A program made the translations under genes and the position numbers. A stretch of DNA of 63,568 nt, from IMG/VR virus record IMGVR_UViG_3300021963_006637, positions 1 to 63,568 of that record; one strand, 5' to 3'. The DNA comes from a virus. Shown piece by piece: positions 31,076 to 63,081 of the stretch (the first letter of the stretch is position 1; each line of letters opens with the position of its first letter). Under the pieces are notes generated by a model that made no database searches, had not been told where the DNA came from, and saw nothing but the letters and a program-made list of their open reading frames with translations.

Positions 31076-33616
31076 TTAAAATGAGAAAAATTTATCAGAT
31101 TTTGTAATTTTAAGTTGTAAATGTCCCCAACTTAATGCTCTATAAAAGTCTTCTAATTTATTTTGCATCTCACTTTCAAAGATTTTATCATAATCGATGT
31201 AGTTTTTGATAAATGATTCAATTTCTTCAGGATCATCTGCACCCTTAAATGCAATAGTTTCCAACCCCAATGGATTTTGTTTTAGATAAACCCACTTCAT
31301 TTTATCTCCATTTCTCATAGGAGAATATTTAAACCCACAGTTAAAGTGCTTCAACAATTGATTGTATGTCCAAGCAGCTTTAACATGCGCTGGAGTTCCT
31401 TTAGCGAATTGGAACATTGCACCTTTTGCGGGAGTATATTTTGAAAGTTCTTTTACTGAACTACTTTTTGCGATATTGTATGGCTTAACTAATGGGAGTG
31501 AACCTTTGAATGCAATAATTTTTTCATCCATAGTTTCTTTATCTTCTCCTCTTAGGATATCGATAAGAGTTTGCCTCATAAAATCTTTAAACGACTGAGG
31601 AAACGATGAACGAACTACATCCAATCCTTTAACATCCAATCTATCAGTTGGAATACCATTCTCAGCAATAATCCACTGTGCGTATCTCTTTTTAGCAATC
31701 CAAAGTCCAGACCTACTCACAAATTCTTTCTTAATTTGCAATCTATGCTTTTCTTTCGGTACATTTAAAATTCTCTGAGAAAAAACATCATAAAAACTAT
31801 TCAAAAAATCTTGAGTTTCGCCTGCGATAGCATCTACTTTTAATGCAACATCCTTATCTTCCATATCTCTCCAATTAGGATATCTATGTTCTAACAAAGG
31901 AACTGCTGAAAAGAATACAGAATCAGTATCAATGTAGATATTATAATCACCATCTTTAGTACCCAACTCTTTATTGTATTTTATGTTAGCCATATCCGCA
32001 GTTGATTTGATTACTGTCTGGCCTGTTATCGTAACAGCTTCTGCATTATCAATATCATAAAAACGGAATGAAGGTAATCCCAATACTCCATACAATGAAT
32101 TCAATAAAATCTTTTGTACTAACTGTCTTTTCTTATAGAAAGCGTATTTTTCTTTATCACCTTCCTCACCATACTTCTTTTCTAATTTACGGAACTCAAC
32201 CCTTTTATTAAACCATTCATCTAAGATAGCAGGGATACATCCTATTTTATCCTGTCTGTAAATTACACCATTTGATGCAATTGAATTTCCACTAGTCTTA
32301 AGAAAGTGTTCAAATTTATCTCTTTCAATTTGGTTTCCTTTTATTGTATAAAATTCATCTTCTTTTTTAAGATATCTCTGAACATCCCAATTTTCAACTT
32401 TGCCCATTTTGGTTTCAGGTGAAATATTAAGAGTCATAATGATTGAGGGATATAGAGAAGTTAAATCCAAATCATATATCCAATCATACTTACCAACAAT
32501 TGGGTCTTTTACATAAGCACCAATGAACTTTTGGTCTTTTGCACTTTCATCTATCCCACCACTTTCCCTCATAGAATCTAACATTCTGTCAGAATCTTCT
32601 TTCTTCATTTTATTAGGTGCTACCAATCCTCTTTGTCTTAAGAAACACAAAAGTGCTCCCTCTAACGGACGCGAAGTGAAAAAAACATCTTCATATGCAA
32701 CGTGTCCGGCGTGAGCAATACCTCTACACAAATCTATAAATTGTAGTTTTTTATCCATATCTACAATCAATCTCACATCCTCTAAGTTATATTCAATAAA
32801 TTTATCTTTATCATTTTGAAATAACTCATCTAGATTTCCACTATATTCAACTTTACCCCTGCCTAATTCAATTTTCGCAACAGTATCCAATCGGTAGTTA
32901 TCTAATTCAGTATAGTTATATTCCTTATATAAAACTAAATAATCTAAAGCAGAAACACCTCCTATGAACCATTTTTTTCTATATGGAGAGTAGAATACTT
33001 CTCTAATAGGAGATAATCTTCTAGCCTGTTTTTCACCTAATAAATTTTTAAGACGATTAAAAAGATAAGGAACATCGAAGAAATCTATGTTCCATCCAGT
33101 TATAATAGTAGGAGATATTGATTCGTATATATCTAAAAATTTAGAAAGCATTTCCTTTTCAGAATCAAAAGGAGATACTATTCTATTATCAGATTTAGAT
33201 GGTTGAATTTTTCTTTCTTTATCTAATATTAAAACATAGTAAAAATCTTCAACTGAATCATGAATTGCAATTGATGTAATTTCATTTTCAGCCTTTTCAG
33301 TATCAGGAAGACCTGAATTCATTTCAACCTCTATGTCAAAAGTTAAAACTTTATGACCTTCTGATGGTAAATCCGAGTTAGTGTATAAATCAACCAAAAC
33401 TCTTGTGATTTCAGGAACATCGGATTCAAATAAAGATGAATCATCTTTATCATATTTAAATACCTTTGTTAGTTTATCACCGTAAATGGATGTCCATTCA
33501 CCATTAGTAGCGGGTTTAAATGCATACCTTTGATATGGCATTGTAAAATACCCTTTTACATCATCCCATATATGGATTGTATTTGTATTTCTTTGATAAT
33601 ATACGTTTTGATACAT
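31076..33616 (-). CDS. 43: Family B DNA polymerase (T4 gp43-like)
   Basis: 846 residues. The 3'-5' exonuclease motifs are FDIEVEM (Asp94, Glu96), GWNIDFFD and YNLEDVRLIVD. Polymerase motif A is DLTSLYPSIIM, motif B the KILLNSLYGVLG helix, and motif C YIDTDSVFF. RNP-like N-terminal and C-terminal clamp-binding regions are of T4 type (the protein ends in KSDKFFSF, a plausible clamp-contacting tail). It is the replicative polymerase. Its promoter is at 33636-33666. Confidence 0.92.
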   Translation of the reverse strand: MYQNVYYQRNTNTIHIWDDVKGYFTMPYQRYAFKPATNGEWTSIYGDKLTKVFKYDKDDSSLFESDVPEITRVLVDLYTNSDLPSEGHKVLTFDIEVEMNSGLPDTEKAENEITSIAIHDSVEDFYYVLILDKERKIQPSKSDNRIVSPFDSEKEMLSKFLDIYESISPTIITGWNIDFFDVPYLFNRLKNLLGEKQARRLSPIREVFYSPYRKKWFIGGVSALDYLVLYKEYNYTELDNYRLDTVAKIELGRGKVEYSGNLDELFQNDKDKFIEYNLEDVRLIVDMDKKLQFIDLCRGIAHAGHVAYEDVFFTSRPLEGALLCFLRQRGLVAPNKMKKEDSDRMLDSMRESGGIDESAKDQKFIGAYVKDPIVGKYDWIYDLDLTSLYPSIIMTLNISPETKMGKVENWDVQRYLKKEDEFYTIKGNQIERDKFEHFLKTSGNSIASNGVIYRQDKIGCIPAILDEWFNKRVEFRKLEKKYGEEGDKEKYAFYKKRQLVQKILLNSLYGVLGLPSFRFYDIDNAEAVTITGQTVIKSTADMANIKYNKELGTKDGDYNIYIDTDSVFFSAVPLLEHRYPNWRDMEDKDVALKVDAIAGETQDFLNSFYDVFSQRILNVPKEKHRLQIKKEFVSRSGLWIAKKRYAQWIIAENGIPTDRLDVKGLDVVRSSFPQSFKDFMRQTLIDILRGEDKETMDEKIIAFKGSLPLVKPYNIAKSSSVKELSKYTPAKGAMFQFAKGTPAHVKAAWTYNQLLKHFNCGFKYSPMRNGDKMKWVYLKQNPLGLETIAFKGADDPEEIESFIKNYIDYDKIFESEMQNKLEDFYRALSWGHLQLKITKSDKFFSF

Positions 33617-38674: not shown

Positions 38675-40036
38675 TTATCCCATATTATCAACATACTTTT
38701 TATGAAGTAGTTGTTTTTGTAGAAGTTCCCCATTTTTTGCTTCCTTACTTGCAATAATTCCATTAGCGGAATTATTAGCATATACTTCTATAATTCCTTT
38801 GTTAGTATTCATCTTAGCAGGAAAAGTCATACCATCTTGCCCAAATCTATTTTTCATAATATGGAATCTAGCGGTATCATTTAGTTTATCAGTATCCTTT
38901 CTACTTACTGAAATAATTAAATCTGCATTCATAACTTTAGCATATGAATCCGCAATTTTATCTGCCTGAATTACTTCTGAATCAATTGCACTTCTATTTG
39001 TCTGTGATGCAGTCCAAATTGGTATTTGATATTCACCACTCAATGCTCTTAAATCAATGTAAATACCACCTTGCTCTGCATAATCAGAATTATTCTTTGA
39101 ATTAGTTGATACCAATAAATCTGCATAATCTATGATAATCAAATCAGGTTGAAATTTAGTTTGTCTGACCATATCAACGTGAGCGGCAATAGTGTTTGCT
39201 GTAATTCCTTTTGGCGGGTAATATTTGATCATCAATCCACCTCTTAATTTATCAACCTTCTCTTTAATCTCATCCTTATGGTCTTTTAAATCAGCTGAAG
39301 GAATTGATGTAAATATAGTATCATATCTCTGCCCAACATAATTTTGAGTAAGTTCTAATGTATAGTGTAATACATTTTTACCCTGCCTAACTGCTTCCGC
39401 ACCGATGTGAGATAACACCCAAGTTTTACCAACTCCCGATGGTGCTACAATTACACCCAATTCTCCTGGCCCTAAACCTCCATCGGTAAGTTCATCGATT
39501 ACATCCCAATTAGTAGCAACAGTTCTTCGATTTACTTCTTCAAAACGAACTTCAATTTCTTCCTTATAATCTAATCCCAAATCAGCAGTTTGCCCAACCT
39601 TAACTGCATCTCTAACCATCTTTTCAATCTTTTCAAATTGACCGGTTTTTAATAATTCTACTGAATTAAGGATTACATTTTTAAAATTTTGATTTTTACA
39701 AAATGTAACAAACTCACTCTTAACCCATTCTTTATCCGAATGTTGTGTATTCTGATATACTGCCTTTAATTGCTGTAATACATTTTGCTGTAATGTATTA
39801 TCGGATATTTTTTGAACTTCAGTTTTAAAATAATCGGTAGTTGGATTATTTTTATATGTGTGGAAATACTTTCTAGTCAAATCCACAATCCATTTGTTGG
39901 TATCTGATTCAAAATATTTTGTTTCTAATATATCAGAAACTTGTTCCAAAAAACTTCTGTCAGTAACCAAATTAGCTACAACTTTCGTTTGGTAGCTCTG
40001 ACCATATTTGGATAGATTATCAATAGTTTCACTCAT
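38675..40036 (-). CDS. 41: Replicative DNA helicase, DnaB-like (T4 gp41-like)
   Basis: 453 residues. VAPSGVGKTWVLSHIG is the Walker A, LIIIDYADLL the Walker B, and TASQTNRSAID holds the sensor/arginine region. The N-terminal ~150 residues are the helical primase-interaction domain. It unwinds the lagging strand ahead of the polymerase. Its ATG lies only 4 bases after a TATATTTG element, so the transcript may be leaderless. Confidence 0.88.
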   Translation of the reverse strand: MSETIDNLSKYGQSYQTKVVANLVTDRSFLEQVSDILETKYFESDTNKWIVDLTRKYFHTYKNNPTTDYFKTEVQKISDNTLQQNVLQQLKAVYQNTQHSDKEWVKSEFVTFCKNQNFKNVILNSVELLKTGQFEKIEKMVRDAVKVGQTADLGLDYKEEIEVRFEEVNRRTVATNWDVIDELTDGGLGPGELGVIVAPSGVGKTWVLSHIGAEAVRQGKNVLHYTLELTQNYVGQRYDTIFTSIPSADLKDHKDEIKEKVDKLRGGLMIKYYPPKGITANTIAAHVDMVRQTKFQPDLIIIDYADLLVSTNSKNNSDYAEQGGIYIDLRALSGEYQIPIWTASQTNRSAIDSEVIQADKIADSYAKVMNADLIISVSRKDTDKLNDTARFHIMKNRFGQDGMTFPAKMNTNKGIIEVYANNSANGIIASKEAKNGELLQKQLLHKKYVDNMG

Positions 40037-42599: not shown

Positions 42600-43717
42600 T
42601 ATTCTACTTCATTTGGTAAGGCTGTATCAACCTCCATCGCTTCAATATCATATGTATCTTTTTTATATTGAAGAATAGTAGCCTCACAAATCTTTTTATA
42701 AATTTGTTCTCTTAATTCATCTTTCTCTTCCATCATTTTGATAAAATCCTTTGATTGGAATTTGATGATTTCCCCAGTATCGGTGTCGGTATATTCATAC
42801 CAAGCCCCACCTTGCTTAACTAATTTGTTTTCTTTCAAACTTGTCAACCAACTACCGTAGTTATCAATTCCTCTATCAAAGTAAATTTCAAAATCAGCAG
42901 AACGAAGTGGTGGCCCTAATCGGTTTTTTACAACCTGCGCCCTAACTGATATACCAACTATCTTATCCTGTCCGCCAATTTTCATTTTAATTTGACCAAC
43001 ATTTTTCAATCTCAATCTAACTGAAGCGTGAAATGCTAATGCTTTACCACCACTTGTAGTCCAAGGGTCACCAAACATAACACCTAACTTCTGTCTTAAT
43101 TGATTTGTAAAGATAACTGCAATTTTCTGTCTACCAATTGTGTTGGTAATTTTTCTCATCGCCTTTGATATGATGATTGCCTTATCAGTTGCGTAACCAT
43201 CTTTATCGTAATCAGCTTCCATTTCCTTTTTAGTTGATGCAGCTGCTACCGAATCCACTACAATTGTTACCAATTTTTGTGCATCCTTTTCTCTAACCTT
43301 TTCGATAATGGTTTCGATTGTTTCAAAAATATCTTCTACTGTATCTACTGATACATACAATAGTTTAGATACATCTACTCCAATTGCATCGAAGAATTCT
43401 CTACTCACCGCAGTTTCAGTATCAATCAATACTGCAATACCACCCTGCTTTTGAGTTTCAGCTAAAAGGTGGGCAGAGAGTAATGATTTACCACTCTGCT
43501 CCAATCCAGTTAGTTCGGTAATTCTTCCCACAGGAATACCACCATATGGTCGATTAGAAATAGCAACATCTAACATAGCAGCTCCGGTAGAAATCCAACC
43601 ATTCACATTGGTGGGAGCTCCTTCGGAATCATCATCTAAATAAAAGGCGATTTTTTGGTCTTTTTGTTTTTTGTTCAGACTATCAACCAAAATGTCTGCT
43701 AAATCTGTTTTTGCCAT
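42599..43717 (-). CDS. uvsX: RecA-like recombinase (T4 UvsX-like)
   Basis: 372 residues. ITELTGLEQSGKSLLSAHL is the Walker A (with Gln-Ser in place of Ser-Ser), VLIDTETAVSREFF holds the catalytic Glu region, KLVTIVVDSVAAAS the Walker B and TNQLRQKLGVMFG the L2-type DNA-binding loop. It carries out strand exchange for recombination-dependent replication. It lies directly after the ssDNA-binding protein gene. Confidence 0.88.
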   Translation of the reverse strand: MAKTDLADILVDSLNKKQKDQKIAFYLDDDSEGAPTNVNGWISTGAAMLDVAISNRPYGGIPVGRITELTGLEQSGKSLLSAHLLAETQKQGGIAVLIDTETAVSREFFDAIGVDVSKLLYVSVDTVEDIFETIETIIEKVREKDAQKLVTIVVDSVAAASTKKEMEADYDKDGYATDKAIIISKAMRKITNTIGRQKIAVIFTNQLRQKLGVMFGDPWTTSGGKALAFHASVRLRLKNVGQIKMKIGGQDKIVGISVRAQVVKNRLGPPLRSADFEIYFDRGIDNYGSWLTSLKENKLVKQGGAWYEYTDTDTGEIIKFQSKDFIKMMEEKDELREQIYKKICEATILQYKKDTYDIEAMEVDTALPNEVE

Positions 43718-43725
43718 AATCTATA

Positions 43726-44607
43726 TTATTTGAATAAATCTTCGAATGCATCTGCTACTTGTTGAGTAGTTTTAGCTACCGCTGGTTTTTCATCATCCCA
43801 AGGTAAGTCAGATGTTGATTGTTTTGCTTTTGGTGCTTCACTCACCTCATCTAATTGATGTGGCTTAGAATCGAAATCAAATGAATCTGATACAGATTGT
43901 TCTGATTTAGCAACAACAGTCTCTTGAGTAGTAGAAGTTTCAGTATCATCAGTTGTGTTTCCACTCAACCAATTCTCTAAAATTTTCTTTAACTCATCGT
44001 AAGATAATTCAGAATAAATAGATGTAATATCTTTTTGATTCTCCAATAACTCTTGAATCTTTGCATTATCATCGTGCAACTTTGTAGAGTTTGGTTTCAC
44101 TCTAATAGTTGTAGTAGGATAAGATGCTCCACCTTCTGGTGCAGTATAATCAACTACAATATCTCTACCATTTAAAGGATGTGATAAATCACCATAATCA
44201 GGATCTGCAAAATACCCCAATAATTCTTGATAAACGGTTTTACCAAATCCCCAAAATTTAACACCCTCATGCTCCAATCCTCTTACGATTACTGGCACAA
44301 AAGTTCTTAATTTTGGCTCCATTTTCTTAGCTTCACGATAATCATCTTTACCACCCATTCTCTTAAGTTTGTCAGCAAACTCAACAATTGGGTCAGGTCT
44401 TCCGAAAGAAGCTGGTGATAAATAAGATTTGTTGTTGATGTTGTAGTGAAAATACAATTCAATAAAAGGAATTTCCTTGTTGAATTTGTAAGGTACTAAA
44501 CGTAATTGGTGTTTTCCGACTGAAGGTTTCCATAGACTGTCGGCTGTCTTTTGTGTGCCCTGAAGTTTGTTCAGACGGGCTCTGATTGCATCAATGTTCG
44601 TTGACAT
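43726..44607 (-). CDS. 32: Single-stranded DNA-binding protein (T4 gp32-like)
   Basis: 293 residues. IRARLNKLQG is a basic N-terminal self-interaction (LAST-like) segment. SLWKPSVGKHQLRLVPY starts the OB core, and the last ~70 residues are acidic and disordered, ending in DAFEDLFK, the protein-interaction tail. No Cys is present, so the zinc site of T4 gp32 is missing. It is preceded by an early-type promoter overlaid by an inverted repeat, and by an ATATTTATATTCGTA element. Confidence 0.85.
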   Translation of the reverse strand: MSTNIDAIRARLNKLQGTQKTADSLWKPSVGKHQLRLVPYKFNKEIPFIELYFHYNINNKSYLSPASFGRPDPIVEFADKLKRMGGKDDYREAKKMEPKLRTFVPVIVRGLEHEGVKFWGFGKTVYQELLGYFADPDYGDLSHPLNGRDIVVDYTAPEGGASYPTTTIRVKPNSTKLHDDNAKIQELLENQKDITSIYSELSYDELKKILENWLSGNTTDDTETSTTQETVVAKSEQSVSDSFDFDSKPHQLDEVSEAPKAKQSTSDLPWDDEKPAVAKTTQQVADAFEDLFK

Positions 44608-46200: not shown

Positions 46201-49200
46201 TTATTTTACCTTTGGTTTTTCTTTATGGATCTCAGATGGGTTTACGTTTGTAGGTCTCACTACTGTACAATCACCTTGTTGATAATCATTAAATCCAACA
46301 TCATCTTTGATTTTCATATAGCAAGGATTTTCTACACCATCTAAGTCTTCTGATTCACATTTTACCGCCTTACCTTTGCTAATACTGAATTTTTGATTAG
46401 AATTCTTAAAATTAGTATAATCCAAATCGTTATTGTAAAGAACTTCGGAAATTTTTTGATTCCTATAATATATTTTCATTGTTTCTTCGAATCTTACCTT
46501 TTCCTCATCACTCATACAATCAAGCACTCCAAGACCCTTAAATTTTTTCAATACGGCTTCAACTCGTCTTTCTGCCCAATCTTCAGCAGCTTTTAGTTCT
46601 TCTTCAGTAGCAATTCCACTTTCTACCATCCATTTTTTATCATCTTCTAATGCCGCCTTCTGCTCGTTAATTTGTTCATCTGATGGAGGGAAATTAGGAG
46701 GGGTTTGTTCCTTTGGATAAAGGAAATCAAATGTTGATAACATTCTCTTACCTCTGCTTCTTGTTTGATTGCTTTTAAACCTACTCTGTCTCCATTTTTC
46801 TTCACTTACTCCAGCTGCACCACCTTGTACTTTTACACTAATTCCACCAGAGAATTCTAATGTTACCATAAGAAATTCTAAATCAGTTTCATTTTCACTA
46901 ATTTCATTTACAACTAATACATCAGCTGTTTTAAACGCTTCATCAGCTGGTAAATAAACTGAATTACCCTTTGCTATTAAGCTCATTGCAACTTTAACCT
47001 CCGCGTAATCAGAAAGACCATCTCTAAAATCTTTACTGTTAAACATATCAGTTAGAAGTTGATTTAAAAGTTCCTGATATTCTTTTTGCTTTTCAGGATT
47101 ATTTTCCAAATCTTCATCTTCAAAATCTTTAAGCTTTTGAAAGGTTTCCATTACCTTTTGATTTTCAGGCAAATCTATTTTATCTCCTAATAATTGAGTA
47201 AATTTATCAATCGATTTATCTAATAATTTTTTCCTAGCTTCCTTTCTTCCTTCAGGTGTTGTAGTATCACCAATATCAACTGTTTTAAATTTTCCAGGTG
47301 GTTTTTTAGAAATTTCTGCTTTCAATTGTTTATATTCATCAATACTATCATTTCTACTTTTAATGGAGTTGACAAAATCTGTTGCTTTTTTCTCTAATTC
47401 TTCATCACTAAGGTTCGGATTACTTTCTTTTAATTTTGCTTTTGCTTCTTCAATTGTAGGAACTGCTAATTTCTTATGTGTTACCCCATTGAATACAACT
47501 GTATCTTCATCAATTATTTCAATTTCAACGTATTTTTCTTCTCCTATGATTTTAAGAGGTGTTCCATCTTTTTTACCAACAGCACCCTGTCCGGATTTAC
47601 CAATTGTTACCCCATATTTTTTAGCTGAACTCTCAGCCCATTCTCTACTTGCTTTTCCAGCTCCTAATTCAGCAACTTTAATGTATCCTTGATTAGGCCA
47701 ATCTCCTTTCTTTTTTGAAGCAATATAGATTTTAACTTCTTTATCATTTACTATTTTAATATAATCTTTTGCAATAGCCTGCTCTTCATCTGTCAAATCT
47801 TCGCCCCTCGTCATCTTACCAACAATAGTAGATATTTGCTCTTTAAGATTATCATCCAAAATTGTATCTTTATATTTAGGTTGATTCATTTTTTTAGCCG
47901 CCACATCTTTGTAATCTTTTTTACCAGCTAATGGGGTAACTGAAGTTGATTGTGAATCTTCTCCATCTTTATTAGAATCTAATTCATCGGCTTTTGCGGT
48001 TGCTTCTGGTTGGTCTTTTGGTTCAATTACGGTCAATTTAAGTGGATCACCATCACCATCTACTTTTGTCACAACAGTTTCAAATATCAAATTAAAAAAT
48101 CTTTGATCCCCATCTATGAATATTTTTTGAACTACACTTTCAGTTTTAATATATTGTGCAGGCCCATTTGGAGTATCGGAATAATAATCTCCTCCTACAT
48201 TATAAACTCGTTGATTAGGGGTTTCATCTGCTTTTTTAGGTTTAGGTAATTCACCATCATTTGCATCCGCTTTCTTTGCAGCAATTCCTTGCTCTTCAGC
48301 AAATTGGTTACACATTGGGATAGCATCTTTAATATCCATATCCACAACAATAACTTTCATATTAGCAGGTTTACCCGCTTTAATCGCGGCAGATGTTACC
48401 GCTGCCCATCTATGATGCCCATCAATTACAAATCCATCTCTACTCACAAAAATTGGTGCAGTAATACCTGGATTAGTAGGATCTTCTTCTAATGCCTTAG
48501 TCATTCCGGCAACTTTACTACCTACTAATTCACTTTGAGTTGCTTTTAATTTATCAGAAGGCAATTCAGTTTCCACAGTCTTAATACCTTTCTCTTTTAA
48601 CATTTTTTTGAAAAGAGGTTCGGTATCTACTTCACCCTTGCTATCTTTTGGAAGGTCTTCGGCAGGAGTTCCTGGAAGAGGTTTACCTTTGAATTGAGGC
48701 ATTTCTACTCTAGGTATTCCCTGATTATCATCACAATATAAGTTAGTACCAGGAACAGTTATTTGACAAAGATTGAAATCTTCCCCTTTAGATGCCTTAT
48801 CGGCTAACTCATCAATCTTCATAGATATTTCTTCTTTCTTATCGGAAGGTATTTTATCTAAATCGGATTCTTTATTGAATACATCTTTATCAACCTCTGG
48901 CATCTCTTTAGCCAAATTCCTTAAAGATGATGGGTTAAATTTATCATCACTCTTTTTATTTCTTTCTCTCCACATTCCAACGTGAGAATTACCCATTGTT
49001 GCAATTACAGTATAACCTTTCTCTTCTGCCTCTTTTATTTTTCTATCTAACTCCTTTTGTCTAAAATCATTAAATGCTTTCTGACCTTTGGATAATTCGG
49101 TTTCACCATAATTCTGGTCATCTCTATAATTTAATTGGTATAAGTCTTCTTTTTGCTCCAATGTTAAATTATTCCAGTCTACATCACCCTCAAATTCTGC

Positions 49201-51174
49201 ACTACCACCTTTTTTAGCTTCACTCTTAATCCATTCTTTAGTCTCATCGGTAAGATAATCATCTGCGTCTAAATCATCACCCTGACCAATCATATTAGTC
49301 CAAACTGATGCCAATGCTTTGTTTTTATCACCGTCATATGATTTAGCAATTTCATCAAATATAGGTGCATCTGAATTTCTTACATCTCCGTTTTCATCCC
49401 AACTTTCTTCTCTACCATTTTCAAAGTGATCTAAAAAAGCATCTCTAATTTCTGCTTGCTCACCTACGAAATCAACTTTACCATTATCATCTATTCCAAC
49501 TCCACCTTCTCCTACAAACATTACTTTTGCATCTTTAGGTAAGCTCTTTATTTTATCTATAATATTTTTAGTAGATTCAGTTCCTTCGCCATGCTCAACT
49601 CCAATTAACATTGAGCCATTTTCGGTAACCTCTGCATCTAAATTATTTCCATCGGAATCCTTTTTACCTCTTAGACTATTTACTATGTCTTCGTTTTGCT
49701 TAACTACTTCCTTCTTAAGTTTTGATTGGTATTCAGGATCATCTTTTTGTTTTCTTTTAAGATTATCATGTTGATTCTTAAATGATCCTGCCATAGCTCT
49801 TTCTTTGGCAGTAGCAGATGGGTCATCTAATATCTTATCAAAATCAGTTTTAGGATCAGGTTTGGTTTCATCTTCAATTTCCTTTTCCTTCTTCTCTAAT
49901 GAATCTTCTGCAGTTTTAACAAGTTTATCTACTTCAGAATCTCCAATTCCTTTTCCTTCAAATTCTTCTTTTTCCTCAGGTGTTATTGGTCTTAAATTCC
50001 CCCCATCATTTTTGAATTCAGCTTCCCCACCCTGCTTTGAAGAATAAAATCCTCCTCCTAAATGATACTTACCAGGAAACTGAGATGATTCTCCCTCATC
50101 TTCTTTTAATAAATGGTAATTTAAAATCTCATCCAAAGAAATAGTTTCGTTTGATACTTCCCCCTGAGGTCTCTTCTCATTCCAACTATCTACAATCTTA
50201 TCCATTATTTCAGGTGAGATTTCCATATTTTCTAATTTCTCCGCAATCTTATCCGCAAAATCCATAAGGATTCTCTCATCATTGTTCACATCAGCAAATA
50301 TCGATGCTCTAGCCGCTCCTACTGCAATAGTTTCTGCTACAACGTGAGGAATAAATTCAATAGCAACGTGTTTTGCAAATGCCTTAGCCCCAGCTGCCGC
50401 TCCACCCAACGCAGCTCCTGTTATGGCAGTAGTGGCTATTTTAACACCAACTGATATTAATGCTTTCTTTTCATGTTTTTCTAAATCTCTCCATCCTCCA
50501 GGTTTACTAAATAATTTACCAGCCGCTACCGCTGCTGTCTTAAACAATTTAACTTCATGTTGAAATCCATGCTTTATTGCAGCACCGGCTCCCTTTACTT
50601 TATCTTTTAGAGCTTCCGCAAAACTTCTACGGGTTTCTGATCCTGGTTTTTCCTGTCCCTTATTAAAGAATTCTTTTTCGTTTTCACTCCACTTTTCTAT
50701 CTTTTGATTAATTTGCTGAAGTTTTTGTTTTGGTACATCTACTAATGATTTCTTAGCATATCCCATCCCAACATTACGAGTGATAGGTGGTTTCTTTTCA
50801 GAATCAGATGAGGGTTGAGATTTCTTTTCAAAATCTGCTTTCTCTTCTGGGGTTACTGGTCTTAAATTACCACTATCATTTTTAAATTCAACTTCTCCAT
50901 TTTGCTTAGACGAATAATAACCTCCGCCCAGGTGGAATTTACCTGGAAATTCAGATGATTCTCCTTCTTTTGATTTATCTACTGGAGCGGGTTTTTTAGG
51001 TTCTTCCTCTAATAAAAAGTATTCGGATATGATATCAGAATATTGACTATACCCCAATTTGTGGCAACATCTAATTAGATTTTCCACTTGCTCTTTATCC
51101 TCCAAACTTGGAAATGGATAGGTTAAAGAGTGTTCTAATAAAATTTCATCTATTATTTTATTAATATCTGCCAT
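46201..51174 (-). CDS. Giant multidomain 'polyvalent'-type protein (1657 aa)
   Basis: Domains in order: a helical N-terminus (1-60); repeat 1 (71-116); a disordered stretch, then an Ala/Gly-rich hydrophobic stretch (about 240-292) able to insert in a membrane; repeat 2 (361-406), 37 of 46 residues identical to repeat 1; an alpha/beta region (520-740) with IGVEHGEG, VMFVGEGG and ATMGNSHVG, perhaps TraB/ChaN-like; a ParB/sulfiredoxin-like domain with FVIDGHHRWAAV (915-926); a degenerate third repeat (989-1009, VGGDYYSDTPNG); and a C-terminal region with DYAEVKVAMSLIAKG, KTADVLVV and GISVKVQGG in the order of a PD-(D/E)XK nuclease. Such ParB-bearing chains are typical of proteins injected with phage DNA. 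Function is inferred. Confidence 0.65.
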   Translation of the reverse strand: MADINKIIDEILLEHSLTYPFPSLEDKEQVENLIRCCHKLGYSQYSDIISEYFLLEEEPKKPAPVDKSKEGESSEFPGKFHLGGGYYSSKQNGEVEFKNDSGNLRPVTPEEKADFEKKSQPSSDSEKKPPITRNVGMGYAKKSLVDVPKQKLQQINQKIEKWSENEKEFFNKGQEKPGSETRRSFAEALKDKVKGAGAAIKHGFQHEVKLFKTAAVAAGKLFSKPGGWRDLEKHEKKALISVGVKIATTAITGAALGGAAAGAKAFAKHVAIEFIPHVVAETIAVGAARASIFADVNNDERILMDFADKIAEKLENMEISPEIMDKIVDSWNEKRPQGEVSNETISLDEILNYHLLKEDEGESSQFPGKYHLGGGFYSSKQGGEAEFKNDGGNLRPITPEEKEEFEGKGIGDSEVDKLVKTAEDSLEKKEKEIEDETKPDPKTDFDKILDDPSATAKERAMAGSFKNQHDNLKRKQKDDPEYQSKLKKEVVKQNEDIVNSLRGKKDSDGNNLDAEVTENGSMLIGVEHGEGTESTKNIIDKIKSLPKDAKVMFVGEGGVGIDDNGKVDFVGEQAEIRDAFLDHFENGREESWDENGDVRNSDAPIFDEIAKSYDGDKNKALASVWTNMIGQGDDLDADDYLTDETKEWIKSEAKKGGSAEFEGDVDWNNLTLEQKEDLYQLNYRDDQNYGETELSKGQKAFNDFRQKELDRKIKEAEEKGYTVIATMGNSHVGMWRERNKKSDDKFNPSSLRNLAKEMPEVDKDVFNKESDLDKIPSDKKEEISMKIDELADKASKGEDFNLCQITVPGTNLYCDDNQGIPRVEMPQFKGKPLPGTPAEDLPKDSKGEVDTEPLFKKMLKEKGIKTVETELPSDKLKATQSELVGSKVAGMTKALEEDPTNPGITAPIFVSRDGFVIDGHHRWAAVTSAAIKAGKPANMKVIVVDMDIKDAIPMCNQFAEEQGIAAKKADANDGELPKPKKADETPNQRVYNVGGDYYSDTPNGPAQYIKTESVVQKIFIDGDQRFFNLIFETVVTKVDGDGDPLKLTVIEPKDQPEATAKADELDSNKDGEDSQSTSVTPLAGKKDYKDVAAKKMNQPKYKDTILDDNLKEQISTIVGKMTRGEDLTDEEQAIAKDYIKIVNDKEVKIYIASKKKGDWPNQGYIKVAELGAGKASREWAESSAKKYGVTIGKSGQGAVGKKDGTPLKIIGEEKYVEIEIIDEDTVVFNGVTHKKLAVPTIEEAKAKLKESNPNLSDEELEKKATDFVNSIKSRNDSIDEYKQLKAEISKKPPGKFKTVDIGDTTTPEGRKEARKKLLDKSIDKFTQLLGDKIDLPENQKVMETFQKLKDFEDEDLENNPEKQKEYQELLNQLLTDMFNSKDFRDGLSDYAEVKVAMSLIAKGNSVYLPADEAFKTADVLVVNEISENETDLEFLMVTLEFSGGISVKVQGGAAGVSEEKWRQSRFKSNQTRSRGKRMLSTFDFLYPKEQTPPNFPPSDEQINEQKAALEDDKKWMVESGIATEEELKAAEDWAERRVEAVLKKFKGLGVLDCMSDEEKVRFEETMKIYYRNQKISEVLYNNDLDYTNFKNSNQKFSISKGKAVKCESEDLDGVENPCYMKIKDDVGFNDYQQGDCTVVRPTNVNPSEIHKEKPKVK

Positions 51175-51644: not shown

Positions 51645-52400
51645 TTATGGAGTAAAAACATTCTTATTTTTCTTATACTCCAAAAAATTTCCAGTGGATT
51701 CGTTACCATTTTTTATTATAGAGGGAAAGGAAATCAAAGTGTATCTTCTATAATCCTCTAACATTTCCATTACCTGATGCTCTATTAAGTTATCAACGAA
51801 GTCCAAAAGTACAAATTTTCCAAAAGTTGGTGATACCTTTTCATTCGTATAATTAATTAAAAATTCCCCACCTTTACCTTCATTCCAATCTTCTTCAGGA
51901 GTTAAATAAAATATACATCCAAATATAGTCCTCTCACTACCTGCATCAAAATGTGGTGGCTGTTTATCACCTTTTTCATACATTCCAATTGTACCCCATC
52001 TTCCTAAATCAATGTCTTCTTTTTTTAAAGAAAATTCGTTATAACACTCATCAATAATTTTTAACTTAGCGGTTTCAATTAATTCTGCTAATTGAGTATC
52101 ACCTTCAAATGGAACATTATTTAAAAGTTGTTTCCATCTTTGAAAAATAACATATCCATTTTCTTCCATATACCCATCTATTTTAGGTATATCACCATAA
52201 GGATGAATATAAGTTTCTTTAAAATCGTAAAACGGGTAACAATGATTTCCGGTATGCTGAGTCTTACATTCTATATTTTCGGAATTAGTAAATTTTTCTA
52301 TAATAACATCACTAATATTCTTAAGAAATTCTATCTCATTTGAAGAAAATAATTCTTCGAAATTACCAATGTAGTATCCTTTTTCTCTAAGTTCTTTCAT
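51645..52400 (-). CDS. 2OG-Fe(II) dioxygenase (second copy)
   Basis: The ATG at 52400 (MKELREKGYYIGNF) is preferred, as the upstream frame overlaps the polymerase-like gene; 251 residues. PPHFDAGSER gives His and Asp ligands, IFYLTPEEDWNEGKGGEF the middle strands, LLDFVDNLIEHQV the distal His and YRRYTLISF the 2OG-binding Arg. Same fold as the 4.9-5.6 kb protein but clearly divergent. Substrate unknown. Confidence 0.75.
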   Translation of the reverse strand: MKELREKGYYIGNFEELFSSNEIEFLKNISDVIIEKFTNSENIECKTQHTGNHCYPFYDFKETYIHPYGDIPKIDGYMEENGYVIFQRWKQLLNNVPFEGDTQLAELIETAKLKIIDECYNEFSLKKEDIDLGRWGTIGMYEKGDKQPPHFDAGSERTIFGCIFYLTPEEDWNEGKGGEFLINYTNEKVSPTFGKFVLLDFVDNLIEHQVMEMLEDYRRYTLISFPSIIKNGNESTGNFLEYKKNKNVFTP

Positions 52401-52404
52401 ATTA

Positions 52405-53646
52405 TTAAATATTACCGTAACTTTTATTAGTGGATACATCCGTAGAAGAAACTTTATCTAAAATCATTTTAATATCATTTAAAACTGATTTCTCATTTTC
52501 ACATACATCAAACAGAAAAGAATCATAGGTATATAACACTAACTTGGTTTTTCTTTTTTCCAAAAAACGATTTATCTTACGAATAACAAATGCGTTTGTT
52601 TCGGTTTCCAACGCCTGCAAATAATAATTGAATACCTTTTGGGGATTATGATTATCTATTTTTTGGAATGGAATACGCTTACCCGCCTTAGTTTCCAGAT
52701 ACCCATTTATCAAAAAATCTTTATACATCTTTTTGATAAACTCATCTGTCTTTTTAAAAAATGGAATCTCTAAATTCTCCACATCTATCCCACCATATAA
52801 TTGTTGGAATGTTAGTTTCTTACTATTGAGGTAATCCTCATCACTCAATACATCTTTGCCAAAATATTGTTTACCTAACCACTCATGAGCGGATTCCTCA
52901 GGTATCTCTTCATCTACTAATTTAGCTATCAGGCGAACGTGGTATCCATCAAAATCAAACTGAACCAACTCACCCAACTTAGAAACGATATAATCCCTAC
53001 TGCCATCCGATTTATTAAGCGCGGAATAGTTTACACCTCCGAATGTGTTTGATGGTCTTCCTGTGGTTGTAAAGTTGTTATATAGAGAATATTCATACCC
53101 ATACGTTGTCGGAATACCATTACTCTCAATTTTTTTGAACTCCGGTAGGACTAAGGAATTGTAGAAATCGTACCCCCCAACCCCCTCAGTATCCGCATAC
53201 TTAAGGTTTTCATTTACAAAATCTACTACACCTTTGAGTATAATACTAATTGGTATAAAACTTAAATCATCTTTATCCCTATACCCCTTTGTAAAATTGT
53301 TATATATCATATCATATTCATAAGGTTTAAACTGACTGAGATGATATAGAACATCAATACTTTGATAATTTGGTAATTCCATTTGATGAAGAAACCACTT
53401 ACTATCAAAGATAAATTTAGGTGCGTTTCCATGAGTTAAAACTCCCAAAGGAGCATCAACACAATCATTATGTCCATTCATAAGAACATAGCAATCATCT
53501 TCGATAAAAACAAAAGCACCCAATAACGTATTCAGTTTTGGATGCTCTTTTCTATTTTTAAACAATGGAAATATTACGCTCCTTGTTAAGCGATATCTTT
53601 TTTGGAATACTCTTCCGATTTCATTGTTTTCTACGAAAATTACCAT
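52405..53646 (-). CDS. Derived family A DNA polymerase-like protein
   Basis: 413 residues from the ATG at 53646 (a TTG lies nine bases earlier, inside the promoter). The C-terminal 230 residues follow the Pol I palm/fingers order: NNFTTTGRPSN (as in Pol I TaTGRLSS), motif A QFDFDGYHVRLIAKL (Asp kept; the usual Q-I-E-L-R partly lost), motif B with K-x3-F-x3-YG, GKRIPF before the palm, and motif C LYTYDSFLFD (Asp kept, neighbouring Glu is Ser). The N-terminal ~150 residues have no recognisable exonuclease motif. A complete family B polymerase is also present, so this is a second, altered polymerase-like protein. Confidence 0.65.
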   Translation of the reverse strand: MVIFVENNEIGRVFQKRYRLTRSVIFPLFKNRKEHPKLNTLLGAFVFIEDDCYVLMNGHNDCVDAPLGVLTHGNAPKFIFDSKWFLHQMELPNYQSIDVLYHLSQFKPYEYDMIYNNFTKGYRDKDDLSFIPISIILKGVVDFVNENLKYADTEGVGGYDFYNSLVLPEFKKIESNGIPTTYGYEYSLYNNFTTTGRPSNTFGGVNYSALNKSDGSRDYIVSKLGELVQFDFDGYHVRLIAKLVDEEIPEESAHEWLGKQYFGKDVLSDEDYLNSKKLTFQQLYGGIDVENLEIPFFKKTDEFIKKMYKDFLINGYLETKAGKRIPFQKIDNHNPQKVFNYYLQALETETNAFVIRKINRFLEKRKTKLVLYTYDSFLFDVCENEKSVLNDIKMILDKVSSTDVSTNKSYGNI

Positions 53647-59248: not shown

Positions 59249-61843
59249 TTATGTTACTGGATTTTTAGATGCTGTATTTGCAACTCGTGCTGTAACCAAT
59301 TGTCCATCCATATATACAGCAATTTTACCCGCTGATAAATCTTGTCTTAATCCTTTTATTTCACTTAATAAACTACTATCTTCATTACCTTCACCTCCAC
59401 CGAATATTCCTGCCGCTAATCCACCTACCGCTCCCAATCCAGCTAATACCGGTAACGCTAATAATCCCATAGTTCCAATCATTCCCAATGAGACAGCTAA
59501 TGCAGCTAATGCCGCTGCTAATCCAAATATAGGAAGGAAACTTAATTGTGACATTGCAGATACCTGCTCAACTAAAAGTGAAAAGGATGAAATTATTGAA
59601 TTTATTCCATTCCCCACCATCATCAATCCGGCACCAAAAACAATCATCGCTCCACCCAATGCTATAAGCCCTAAAACTCCTGCACCAAATAATACTGCAC
59701 CAGGCCCTGATAATAATGCACCCAATCCAAACATCGCTGCTGAAAATAATACCAATCCTAATGCCGCGGCTCCAACTGCTGTCCAATCTAGCCCTGCAAT
59801 TAAACTCATCGCAAATGCAAATGGAATTAACGCAACACCTAATATACCAACTGCCAATGCACCTTGAACCATATCTTTTTCAACCTTACTAAGTAAATAT
59901 GCAATTCCAGCCAATCCTGCTATTCCAACTAAACCTTTTCCAACTGATTCCCATTCAACACTTCCAAATTCTTGAAATGCCTTTGCTGCAACATATAAGG
60001 CAGCTGATAAAATAAGAATTGCGGCTGCACCTCCTATCAAATTAGTCATATTTCTTCCACCGGTAGCATTACCTGTTTGATTTAATTGATTTCCTACTGA
60101 ATTTTGTGGAGCCGGTGTGGTTGGCCCAGTTGGTGCAGTAGGTGTTGCTCCACCTCTACTAAATAAATTTCGTATTCTTCCTGGAACCAATGAACCCAAC
60201 ACACTTTGCCCATTTATTGCCGCAGCTGTCATTTTTGCTCTAATCAATTCTCCTACAAAAAATGTTACCCCACTTGCTATCGGCCCACCAAATTGTGTGG
60301 CCATTCCTTTAATCATTTGATATGCCTTTGCAGTATTACTACCGTAATCTTTACTTATTTGATCAAGTTTTCCCTGATTCGCTACCATTTGATTAAGTTC
60401 CTCAACTGATAGGCCTAATGCTTCCGCAGTTTGCCTTCTGGAAATAGGATCCATTTTATTATATGCATCAATACCTCCAACTTGATTAAGAATTTCTTTA
60501 GTCATTCCTTCCAAATCATTAGTAAATGCCAATTCTCTTGCACGGTTAAGGTTAATGTTTCTACCTAACATAGCACTTAATTCCAATTCTTTTTCAATCG
60601 AACTTTCAAAATCCAAAAGATTTTCCGCCATCTTTGCAGTAGTTCCAATTGATACTCCTAGTTTAGCTGCCTGAATTGCTGCATCTGCAAAATTCTGACC
60701 TGTTCCCTTTGAGTAAAGTGCCATTGCTTCGGTGTTACCCTCTATATCCTTCATTACCTGTCCAGGCAAAAGATTACTCATCAATGCGGTGTTTGCAACA
60801 TTCGCCACCATGTTTTCACTTACTTCACGACTCACACCCCTTAAATTACCAAAAGAATTTACTAAAGAAGCGGCTTCAGCTCCAGATGTTCCCATCCCTA
60901 ATGCTAATAAATTAGTGTTGAGTTGTGCACCAAGTGTAGCTTCATCCACATCACCACTTAATTTAGCCATTTGGGATAATGTTCCAGCGGCATCATCAAA
61001 TACAAATGATAGAAGAGAAGTAGATACAACAAATGCACCAGTTTGTTTGTTCACATCTGCCATAGCAGATGCAAATTTTCCAGCTGCTGCGGATGCCGCT
61101 ACAATCATAGCTTGAGGAGTTTGAAGAGTCATACGAACGGTATCTAATACCCCTAATACACTTTTCTTCATTTTATCGTAAGCCGCAATTTGTCCCGCTA
61201 TTTGTTCCTTAGTTTCAGCGGATACAGTTGCATATTCTTCGGCTACTTGCAATCCATCTTGTTGAGTTTGTAGTAAACTTGCTAGCTTAGAAGCCTGCTC
61301 TTCGGTGATTTTATTTTGTGCAAGAGCCATTGCAATTTCTCTCTCAACATTTGTAACAACTCCATCATGCTTATCTCTTAACGCATCTTGTAATTCTATT
61401 TTACTTGAATCCGTTTCTGCTAATTTTTGTTGTATCCCCTGTAATTGAAGAGCTTTGTTTGAAATTTGAGTAATTATTTCAACTTGTTCTTCTGAAGCAT
61501 TTTGTTGAGAAATAATACTTCTTAATTCATTTCTAGAAGTATCAACTGATTCTTTTTGTTTTTCTGTCAATTTAGAATAAACGCTACTGATAGACGCCAA
61601 CTCATTTAATTGATCACTAAATATTTCAGTTAATTGTCCAGATATTCTATTTCCTCTATATCTTTCGTTTACAATTCTTTGTTGTAAACTTAATAAAGCC
61701 TTTTCTTTATCTTCTAATCTATTTAAACGATCAAGCTGAGCTTGATCCAATTCTTCCCCTCTAGCCTGAAGTTCGATTTGTCTCTCTTTCAGGTTATTTA
61801 TACTTTGTTGGATATCCCTTAATTGTTGTAGATTTTGAGACAT
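59249..61843 (-). CDS. Tail tape measure-like protein
   Basis: 864 residues. A long coiled-coil N-terminal half (LQQLRDIQQSINNLKERQIE... to ~260), a helical, Ala-rich middle part, then a strongly hydrophobic C-terminal block (about 610-820, rich in Gly/Ala/Leu with repeated membrane-like segments), as in tape measure proteins that reach the host membrane. At ~1.5 A per residue it would set a tail near 130 nm. It lies next to the tail and baseplate genes, as expected. Confidence 0.75.
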   Translation of the reverse strand: MSQNLQQLRDIQQSINNLKERQIELQARGEELDQAQLDRLNRLEDKEKALLSLQQRIVNERYRGNRISGQLTEIFSDQLNELASISSVYSKLTEKQKESVDTSRNELRSIISQQNASEEQVEIITQISNKALQLQGIQQKLAETDSSKIELQDALRDKHDGVVTNVEREIAMALAQNKITEEQASKLASLLQTQQDGLQVAEEYATVSAETKEQIAGQIAAYDKMKKSVLGVLDTVRMTLQTPQAMIVAASAAAGKFASAMADVNKQTGAFVVSTSLLSFVFDDAAGTLSQMAKLSGDVDEATLGAQLNTNLLALGMGTSGAEAASLVNSFGNLRGVSREVSENMVANVANTALMSNLLPGQVMKDIEGNTEAMALYSKGTGQNFADAAIQAAKLGVSIGTTAKMAENLLDFESSIEKELELSAMLGRNINLNRARELAFTNDLEGMTKEILNQVGGIDAYNKMDPISRRQTAEALGLSVEELNQMVANQGKLDQISKDYGSNTAKAYQMIKGMATQFGGPIASGVTFFVGELIRAKMTAAAINGQSVLGSLVPGRIRNLFSRGGATPTAPTGPTTPAPQNSVGNQLNQTGNATGGRNMTNLIGGAAAILILSAALYVAAKAFQEFGSVEWESVGKGLVGIAGLAGIAYLLSKVEKDMVQGALAVGILGVALIPFAFAMSLIAGLDWTAVGAAALGLVLFSAAMFGLGALLSGPGAVLFGAGVLGLIALGGAMIVFGAGLMMVGNGINSIISSFSLLVEQVSAMSQLSFLPIFGLAAALAALAVSLGMIGTMGLLALPVLAGLGAVGGLAAGIFGGGEGNEDSSLLSEIKGLRQDLSAGKIAVYMDGQLVTARVANTASKNPVT

Positions 61844-62121: not shown

Positions 62122-62378
62122 CTCATTTTTACTTTACTACCACCAGGTCTTTTTCTATTAACCTTATCCATCTCTTCTTTTTCTTTCTTCTTTAAATCAA
62201 CCAACTTTTTTAAATAAAATCTTCTCCAATGTATTGGCATCGTATAAACATCTCGCCAAGTAAATCCATTACCGAATTGAACCATACTCCACAACTCTTC
62301 ATGAAGTATAGCAGAGTAATTAGTTGGAAGGGTAAAAAAAGTTAATCCCAAAGGGGATATCCAGCGCCTCCGTCTCAC
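62118..62378 (-). CDS. Small tail-assembly protein downstream of gp26-like gene
   Basis: 86 residues, overlapping the gp26-like gene by 59 bases (different frame). The conserved part is SAILHEELWSMVQFGNGFTW and YTMPIHWRRFYLKKL with a Lys-rich tail. Tailed phages often have such a protein after a gp26-like gene, with overlap, as for assembly chaperones. The N-terminal ~15 residues are uncertain: a downstream non-ATG start is possible. Confidence 0.55.
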   Translation of the reverse strand: MRRRRWISPLGLTFFTLPTNYSAILHEELWSMVQFGNGFTWRDVYTMPIHWRRFYLKKLVDLKKKEKEEMDKVNRKRPGGSKVKMR

Positions 62379-63081
62379 CTGTTATATCTGATACAAATTC
62401 AAATTTCAATTCTAAATCCGGTGTTATTTCCTTTATGTGATTTCTAAACGCTCTACTATCAGATGCTTTAAAACTATTTGCAACCCATTTATTTACAAAT
62501 GATTTATCAGTATTTCCATTAACCTCTAAAATCATATATCTTAATCTAGTTGTAACATCGGAAGGATTTGCACCCTTAGATAACTTTTCTAATGCTTGAA
62601 TTTCTGCTGTTATATTCTGCTCATCTTTATGTGTAAGCAATTTGAATTTAATTTTTGTCCCATCTGAAGGTAATGAAAAATCATAAACATTGTTTCTTTT
62701 AAGTTTAGTAAAATCAATATCCTTTGTTTGAACTTTGCCTAAATCGATAGTTACTTTCTGTCTTTCTCCGCTAAAAGGGTCAGTTATCTCCACTTCGTAG
62801 TTTGGCCCATAACCTAAAACACGAGTTGCTAAGAAAATTGCATTCTTATCACCAATGATTAAATCATCGATGGATGTCCCAACTACTACTGATTCCAGTA
62901 ATTTATCTAATACAATTCCTTTTTTAATTAAATTCTGAGAAGAAAGGATATCTTCCTCTTTTGCGGTCATATACTTTAAAGTAATCTTTCCACTTGCCAA
63001 TGGATGACCTTCTGGATAACATAATCCTTGAGATGGTAAATCTATAACCTCTGTCGGAAAATCGTACTGTTTTTCTTGCAT
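62320..63081 (-). CDS. 26: Baseplate hub/assembly protein (T4 gp26-like)
   Basis: 253 residues. VIDLPSQGLCYPEGHPLASG, TLKYMTAKEEDILSS, KGIVLDKLLESVV and DKNAIFLATRVLGYGPNYE are the conserved start of the gp26-like family of T4-type marine phages. The C-terminal half (ALEKLSKGANPSDVTTRL) is helical. Probably a chaperone or hub component in baseplate assembly. It is the first gene after the strong terminator at 63136-63162. Confidence 0.65.
   Translation of the reverse strand: MQEKQYDFPTEVIDLPSQGLCYPEGHPLASGKITLKYMTAKEEDILSSQNLIKKGIVLDKLLESVVVGTSIDDLIIGDKNAIFLATRVLGYGPNYEVEITDPFSGERQKVTIDLGKVQTKDIDFTKLKRNNVYDFSLPSDGTKIKFKLLTHKDEQNITAEIQALEKLSKGANPSDVTTRLRYMILEVNGNTDKSFVNKWVANSFKASDSRAFRNHIKEITPDLELKFEFVSDITGETEALDIPFGINFFYPSN

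Follow-up and report, generated by a model that had tools for sequence, protein, structure and literature searches.

T4 and P1 serve as the model phages for head-shipped proteins, with cargo that is mostly small or a single giant chain. In T4, the internal proteins IPI-III and Alt carry an N-terminal capsid-targeting peptide that gp21 cleaves off within the prohead core, and a targeting sequence of roughly ten residues can bring foreign proteins inside the head (PMC9958956, PMC3012670); the internal proteins are then injected with the DNA. The P1 protein DarB, at about 250 kDa, is virion-packaged and injected, and is targeted to the capsid through fewer than 30 N-terminal residues (PMC9024508). 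Polyvalent proteins, surveyed by Iyer et al. in 2017 (PMC5512222), are giant multi-domain chains with late-gene context and modular shuffling. Their ParB/Srx domains are thought to be NTP-regulated DNases, and in Osa-like proteins a ParB-type DNase has been suggested to degrade rival elements (PMC5512222).

Here we describe a 1657-residue protein that shares features with each of these known systems. Like the polyvalent proteins, it is a giant multi-domain chain with a phage polyvalent-type ParB domain, a late-gene setting and shuffled relatives. Unlike them, it yielded no zincin MPTase, ART, primase or helicase domain in profile searches, and it includes a TraB/Tiki-like domain of a kind outside that survey, which mentions neither TraB nor EreA (PMC5512222). 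In the literature searched, no paper described polyvalent proteins in combination with TraB. DarB-like relatives share the ParB-type domain, but detectable similarity to DarB is confined to it; the 1657-residue protein has no methylase or helicase and comes from another phage lineage. The internal proteins of T4 are small and single-domain, whereas here several domains are joined in one chain. What is new is a large, reshuffled family behind a shared head-type tag in uncultured T4-like phages, comprising the TraB/Tiki-like module as well as MEM and MID/CT modules for which no isolate relatives were found.

Genomic setting and gene structure

The window, by which we mean the whole 63.6-kb stretch of the IMG/VR virus record analyzed here, carries T4-type replication genes (Table 1) and represents part of the genome of an uncultured T4-like phage. 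Its longest open reading frame is the one singled out in the initial annotation, running on the minus strand from an ATG at 51174 to a stop at 46201 opposite a plus strand full of stops. The frame is conserved across relatives of 54-100% identity and dN/dS stays well under 1 in almost all modules (selection is weakest in the linker, REP3 and exchanged modules), which rules out a chance ORF. As first described, the gene lies between tail and early genes, with baseplate and tape-measure genes on one side and gp32, UvsX, DnaB and DNA polymerase on the other, all on one strand; the homologous gene in an 88-kb sister contig (G001) has the same neighbors. This position downstream of tail and baseplate genes in a phage record matches the late or virion gene context of polyvalent proteins, and T4-type Alt-related ADP-ribosyltransferase genes are likewise reported directly after tail and baseplate genes. 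Head genes are absent from the window, and gp21 and gp23 are presumed for this phage from its sisters.

The whole chain returned no usable match from Pfam, NCBIfam, PADLOC or PDB sequences, apart from traces over the ParB region. Matches to the T4 late-promoter motif were rarer than expected by chance, with none just upstream of the gene. Two genes upstream, the product of 51645-52439 resembles a DNA endonuclease family (phrog_2297, E 3e-8).

Table 1 Features of the 1657-residue protein and of the surrounding window.
Feature	Residues	Nucleotides	Strand	Basis or remark
Whole gene, 1657-aa multi-domain protein		46201..51174	-	ORF analysis and homologues
N-terminal domain (NT)	1-60	50995..51174	-	Alignment and N-termini of relatives
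Repeat copy 1 (REP; FPGKFHLGGG...; KSKEGESSEFPGKFHLGGG...)	67-112	50839..50976	-	
MEM module, Ala/Gly-rich	155-345	50140..50712	-	Whole module either present or missing in relatives
Repeat copy 2 (REP; FPGKYHLGGG...; KEDEGESSQFPGKYHLGGG...)	357-402	49969..50106	-	Preceded by conserved L[DN]E at 347-349
TraB/Tiki-like alpha/beta domain	505-750	48925..49662	-	Invariant motif and AlphaFold model
DdrB/DarB-type ParB-like domain	785-984	48223..48822	-	DGHHRWAA at 918-925
Divergent third repeat (REP3)	988-1062	47989..48213	-	
MID module	1075-1260	47395..47952	-	Travels with C-terminal module
C-terminal module (CT)	1290-1657	46204..47307	-	Candidate nuclease core about 1380-1480
DNA polymerase		31079-33616		T4-type replication gene
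DnaB-like helicase		38678-40036		T4-type replication gene
UvsX		42602-43717		T4-type replication gene
gp32-like		43729-44607		T4-type replication gene
Weakly tape-measure-like gene		59252-61843		Upstream of the 1657-aa gene in transcription direction
Baseplate hub gene		62323-63081		Upstream of the 1657-aa gene in transcription direction

A shared N-terminal tag

Residues 5-14 (NKIIDEILLE) form a capsid-targeting-like helix that ends in LLE, and a second [IL]xE lies at 49-51. Nearly all intact N-termini of the family begin with such a short helix and an [I/L/M][L/I]xE end, whatever domains come after; examples are NKIIDEILLE, SELINEILSE, NFEEILLE, QYLVNQILLE and KLKSLLKE. The cargo behind it may be ParB, the TraB-like domain, MEM alone, MID and CT alone, or a nucleotidyltransferase, and the tag is missing from the stand-alone TraB-like ORFs of the L078 type and from a few other members. 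A simple version of the motif, which is short and has a background match rate of 11%, was found in 15 of 21 distinct family N-termini as compared to 37 of 324 other distinct N-termini on the same contigs (Fisher p 2e-9). Several of these 37 background matches are prohead-core genes adjoining the gp21 protease (MKITKEQLKALVGEVLQEE, MSNQLEALKNKIKEILSEL, MKISRTRLKEIIKGVMTEE), and core genes beside gp21 in sister phages start with the same kind of N-terminus. When a position-specific matrix of the tag was used instead, the 1657-residue protein ranked first of 68 ORFs in the window; in the sister contig its homologue ranked first of 87 and a core gene second. Scans with the N-terminal domain returned only family members that were already known.

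A gp21-type protease (PF03420) is encoded in the sister contig (E 2.9e-29) and in seven other related contigs, is not found in the window fragment, and gp23 is present in two related contigs. The N-terminal [L/I]xE arrangement is that of T4-type capsid-targeted internal proteins and, together with the protease of the relatives, the helix fits a capsid-targeting sequence of the T4/P1 type, with LLE-14 as a possible gp21-type cleavage site. LxE sites are conserved across the family at the N-terminus (residues 12-14) and ahead of each repeat (49-51 and 347-349). From this placement, we infer that the chain might be processed into its cassettes by the prohead protease.

Other tagged proteins lie among or near head genes. 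One contig of a T4-like phage (G037; L144:10840-12603) encodes a tagged 588-residue ParB-family protein (phrog_2859, 3.7e-18) between the gp21 prohead protease and a gene in the scaffold position, and two more (G024, G026) encode tagged cytidylyltransferase-like proteins near head genes.

ParB-like and TraB/Tiki-like domains

Residues 785-984 are homologous, as judged from sequence, to the ParB domain of DarB-like and PLxRFG polyvalent proteins, in agreement with the ParB-like assignment of the initial annotation. In tblastn searches of cultured phages, the region matched Klebsiella, Pseudomonas and Burkholderia phages (to 4e-10), where the annotations of the matching proteins are DarB-like antirestriction, PLxRFG or structural, and it matched phrog_2859 at 9.5e-18. 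The DGHHRWAA motif, with R922, is invariant in 21 of 21 sequences and thus preserves the conserved active-site arginine of DdrB/DarB-type ParB domains.

The run at 520-740 had been flagged for profile and structure searches with no function assigned. It falls within an independent alpha/beta domain at 505-750 (AlphaFold model, mean pLDDT 89) that has a GxxH...E...R...GxxH signature: G525xxH528, E556, N702xxR705 and G728xxH731 are invariant in all 39 sequences. In the model, G525xxH528 follows an early strand, E556 the next and G728xxH731 the last, with the arginine also near the last strand. We take this layout, GxxH...E...GxxH at the ends of core strands, to be that of the TraB/Tiki/Ere superfamily (TraB/PrgY/GumN-Tiki-ChaN-erythromycin-esterase). 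Foldseek searches of viral models (BFVD) placed an Edafosvirus protein first (E 7e-3, prob 0.93) and a Catovirus "TraB family protein" second (E 0.023, prob 0.57). Pfam TraB gave sub-threshold, in-register matches in three members (E 0.05-0.07), one over the N-terminal motif and two over the C-terminal motif. In the Tiki-type endopeptidase RRSP, the 2His/2Glu site of this superfamily is catalytic (PMC6254334).

Sequence profiles do not connect the domain to the superfamily with significance: hhalign against TraB was non-significant, although hhalign also misses TraB against Ere, and a small-family HMM scored no better than shuffles when searched for TraB with hmmsearch. In the PDB, no fold match fell below E 0.001, and the best were MINPP phosphatases (E 0.014, TM 0.25). 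A histidine-phosphatase assignment was rejected, because the RHG motif is absent and the His_Phos_2 profile scores at the level of shuffled sequences. On balance, we lean towards a TraB/Tiki-like hydrolase domain, a resemblance of motif and viral fold match rather than proven homology. No relative was found in 84,980 prokaryote genomes.

MEM, MID and C-terminal modules

A membrane-active stretch had been proposed for the Ala/Gly-rich region. The region itself is real and constitutes the MEM module; its hydropathy is borderline, with a best 19-residue Kyte-Doolittle value of 1.63 and a single window above 1.6. On a 147-kb contig, a stand-alone protein of 285 residues (L344:6692-7546) consists of the tag MIKLMDLLNEE, a KTGKVVNF element and the MEM module.

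For the C-terminal region, the proposed PD-(D/E)XK nuclease is only suggested. D1389, E1392, D1418, S1446 and K1448 are invariant, and the predicted order of helix and strands (H95-112, E116-120, E130-133, E155-160, helix) fits the alpha-beta-beta-beta arrangement of these nucleases, with pLDDT of 35-66 in parts of the model. The core motif D...(D/E)xK is not seen, as an invariant Ser replaces the acidic residue (S1446xK1448) and E1392 lies on the preceding helix; a Foldseek search of the PDB gave nothing below E 0.001. SxK variants occur in restriction enzymes of the Cfr10I type. We therefore put the module forward only tentatively as a candidate SxK variant of the PD-(D/E)XK fold.

Shuffled architectures and cassette borders

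Whole-protein searches found 21 loci on about 20 contigs at 54-100% identity. The TraB-like domain was found in at least 143 IMG/VR stretches from uncultured phages and MEM in at least 112 viral stretches, both on contigs of up to 288 kb. Among 50,697 isolate-phage records, the TraB-like, MEM, CT and N-terminal regions have no detectable relative; of the domains searched, only ParB does.

Module orders, determined with HMMs built on each region, vary widely around the NT-REP-MEM-REP-TraB-ParB-REP3-MID-CT arrangement of the window. Four loci (L008, L014, L044, L046) keep that order with no MEM and one repeat. Others read ParB-TraB-REP-CT (L048), TraB-REP3-ParB-MEM (L040), MEM-ParB-REP3 (L304) or ParB-TraB-MEM-MID-CT (L068), and reduced forms consist of MID and CT alone (L123), ParB-TraB alone (L076, 594 residues on a 202-kb contig) or MEM alone behind the tag (L344). 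Disparate domains are thus combined in single polypeptides as in polyvalent proteins, ParB-like with TraB-like, MEM and MID/CT in the window. Each of these occurs apart or in another order in relatives, and their differing activities are predicted ones.

Divergence also changes abruptly along single pairs of sequences. Between the window and L005, pS falls in the range 0.55-0.66 for the greater part of residues 1-1062 and in the range 0.07-0.10 for 1075-1657; between the window and L012, pN is 0.03 in ParB and 0.51 in CT. These jumps indicate that the chain recombines near residues 1062-1075 and elsewhere. Taken with the module orders, the alignments show cassettes exchanged among phages by recombination, with modules reordered, deleted and swapped.

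The two 46-residue FPGKxHLGGG repeats are present as annotated, with 37 of 46 residues identical. A decayed third copy at 988-1062 is plausible, since an HMM of copies 1 and 2 matches it in close relatives (E about 0.01) and distant ones (3e-5 to 4e-3); the match is weak and recurring, and only a GG-YYS..G core is held in common, which leaves the assignment short of certain. Repeat copy number is kept across relatives: two repeats in all eight distinct NT-class alleles with MEM and one in all seven that have no MEM. Recent recombination joints were considered and rejected, as the DNA of copies 1 and 2 is only 76% identical (105 of 138 bases) and shares no identical run of more than 12 bases, which makes recent exchange between the copies unlikely. 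With their linkers, the repeats are better called borders between cassettes. The suggestion that they serve as a packaging tag or scaffold was not upheld, because the tag helix also occurs on relatives that have no repeat and the repeats flank cassettes.

In one set of N-termini (L076-L088, L144, L145), a post-tag element, KNKKTGNVYxVKKMDPxKHDKPTPAE, stands in place of the FPGKxHLGGG repeat and may be its functional counterpart.

In one branch, the ParB ORF ends in GAA AAA AAA AAG TAG/TAA, which contains the slip heptamer A AAA AAG (L078:5929-5974, L079:5962-5974, L083:1202-1214, L088:5905-5974). The TraB-like domain goes on in the -1 frame over about 14 codons with synonymous changes and no start codon, and the fused relatives L076 and L086 retain the same A10G run in frame. 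This pattern, new for such proteins, likely reflects a conserved -1 frameshift or transcriptional slippage that would yield both ParB alone and a ParB-TraB-like fusion. RNA structure downstream of the slip site did not rise above that of shuffled sequences.

Proposed packaging and injection, and alternative explanations

Interchangeable cassettes behind a capsid-packaging-like tag make head loading and injection probable, and we consider it likely that this is a polyvalent protein which a T4-like phage packages in its virions and injects. ParB homology to DarB-like and PLxRFG proteins, the fusion and shuffling of disparate domains, and the capsid-targeting-like N-terminus support the polyvalent-protein comparison made in the initial annotation. 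In this mechanism, the helix IIDEILLE would bring the protein into the prohead core, where the gp21-type protease of the phage would cleave it off at LLE-14; the conserved LxE sites ahead of the two repeats may be further points of cleavage. Intact or in fragments, the protein would lie beside the DNA in the head until infection carries it into the cell. Once inside, the ParB-like domain as a DNase/NTPase, the TraB/Tiki-like domain as a hydrolase and perhaps the C-terminal module as a nuclease would act on host DNA, defenses or regulators before phage gene expression, so as to disarm the bacterium or take it over.

Packaging is itself deduced, and the gene adjoins replication genes, while stand-alone TraB-like ORFs of the L078 type begin with no tag. 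These points would suit a cytoplasmic protein, late or early (e.g., for anti-defense or host takeover), that is made after infection and never packaged, with the helix as a folding or oligomerization element. This is unlikely, as the tag is enriched over otherwise unrelated cargo and prohead-core genes, the closest cultured ParB relatives are annotated as DarB-like antirestriction or structural, and P1 DarB is found in the virion (PMC9024508). That the tag is shared with prohead-core rather than tail genes also counts against a role as a tail- or tape-measure-associated structural or ejection-pore protein, in which MEM would insert into the host membrane as the DNA enters, with ancillary roles for the other domains. 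The location of the gene behind co-oriented tape-measure and baseplate genes and the Ala/Gly-rich, moderately hydrophobic MEM module speak for such a role. Many full-length relatives lack MEM, however, its hydropathy is borderline, catalytic-type residues are kept invariant in the ParB and TraB-like domains, and no tail family matches the protein; we regard this explanation as quite unlikely. Far more improbable is a multifunctional toxin/immunity-type protein directed at rival phages, whose nucleases would exclude superinfecting DNA in the infected cell. The DNase suggested for Osa-like proteins (PMC5512222) and the candidate C-terminal nuclease are in line with it, but no immunity gene or self-protection system was identified and the packaging-type tag would be left with no explanation.

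Beyond the single protein, the packaged and injected cargo may belong to a class of capsid-targeted cassette effectors in uncultured T4-like phages, a proposal that we hold with less than even confidence. A constant head tag would precede reshuffled modules (ParB DNase, TraB/Tiki-type hydrolase, MEM, nuclease-like and NMN-adenylyltransferase-like), and the repeats and LxE sites would be both borders and prohead-protease processing sites, such that a single gene could supply each virion with several separate effectors. Within one phage lineage, a common packaging tag appears to serve dozens of exchangeable multi-domain cargoes, among them domain families that lack cultured relatives and a type of hydrolase absent from the listed polyvalent-protein domains. 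If this is true, the architectures would be a readable catalogue of early anti-defense functions and a source of natural capsid-targeting tags.

Additional domains in relatives

Another group of relatives opens with a cytidylyltransferase/NMNAT-like domain (PF01467, E 8e-6 and 5e-7), followed by the TraB-like domain, MEM or both. Such starts, with the motif RFQPFHKGH, are seen in large tagged proteins (L141:17013-19829, L142:1026-3374), some near head genes, and also in L054, L061, L063, L087, L092, L104 and L295. The tagged NMN-adenylyltransferase-like proteins are possibly injected enzymes of NAD metabolism or against NAD depletion. Several relatives (L092:4546-10029, L295, L314) carry a DUF5661 (PF18905) domain after the TraB-like or MEM module. 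In one further homologue (L017:7983-11361), a break in frame within ParB splits the gene; an error of assembly or sequencing is the probable cause.
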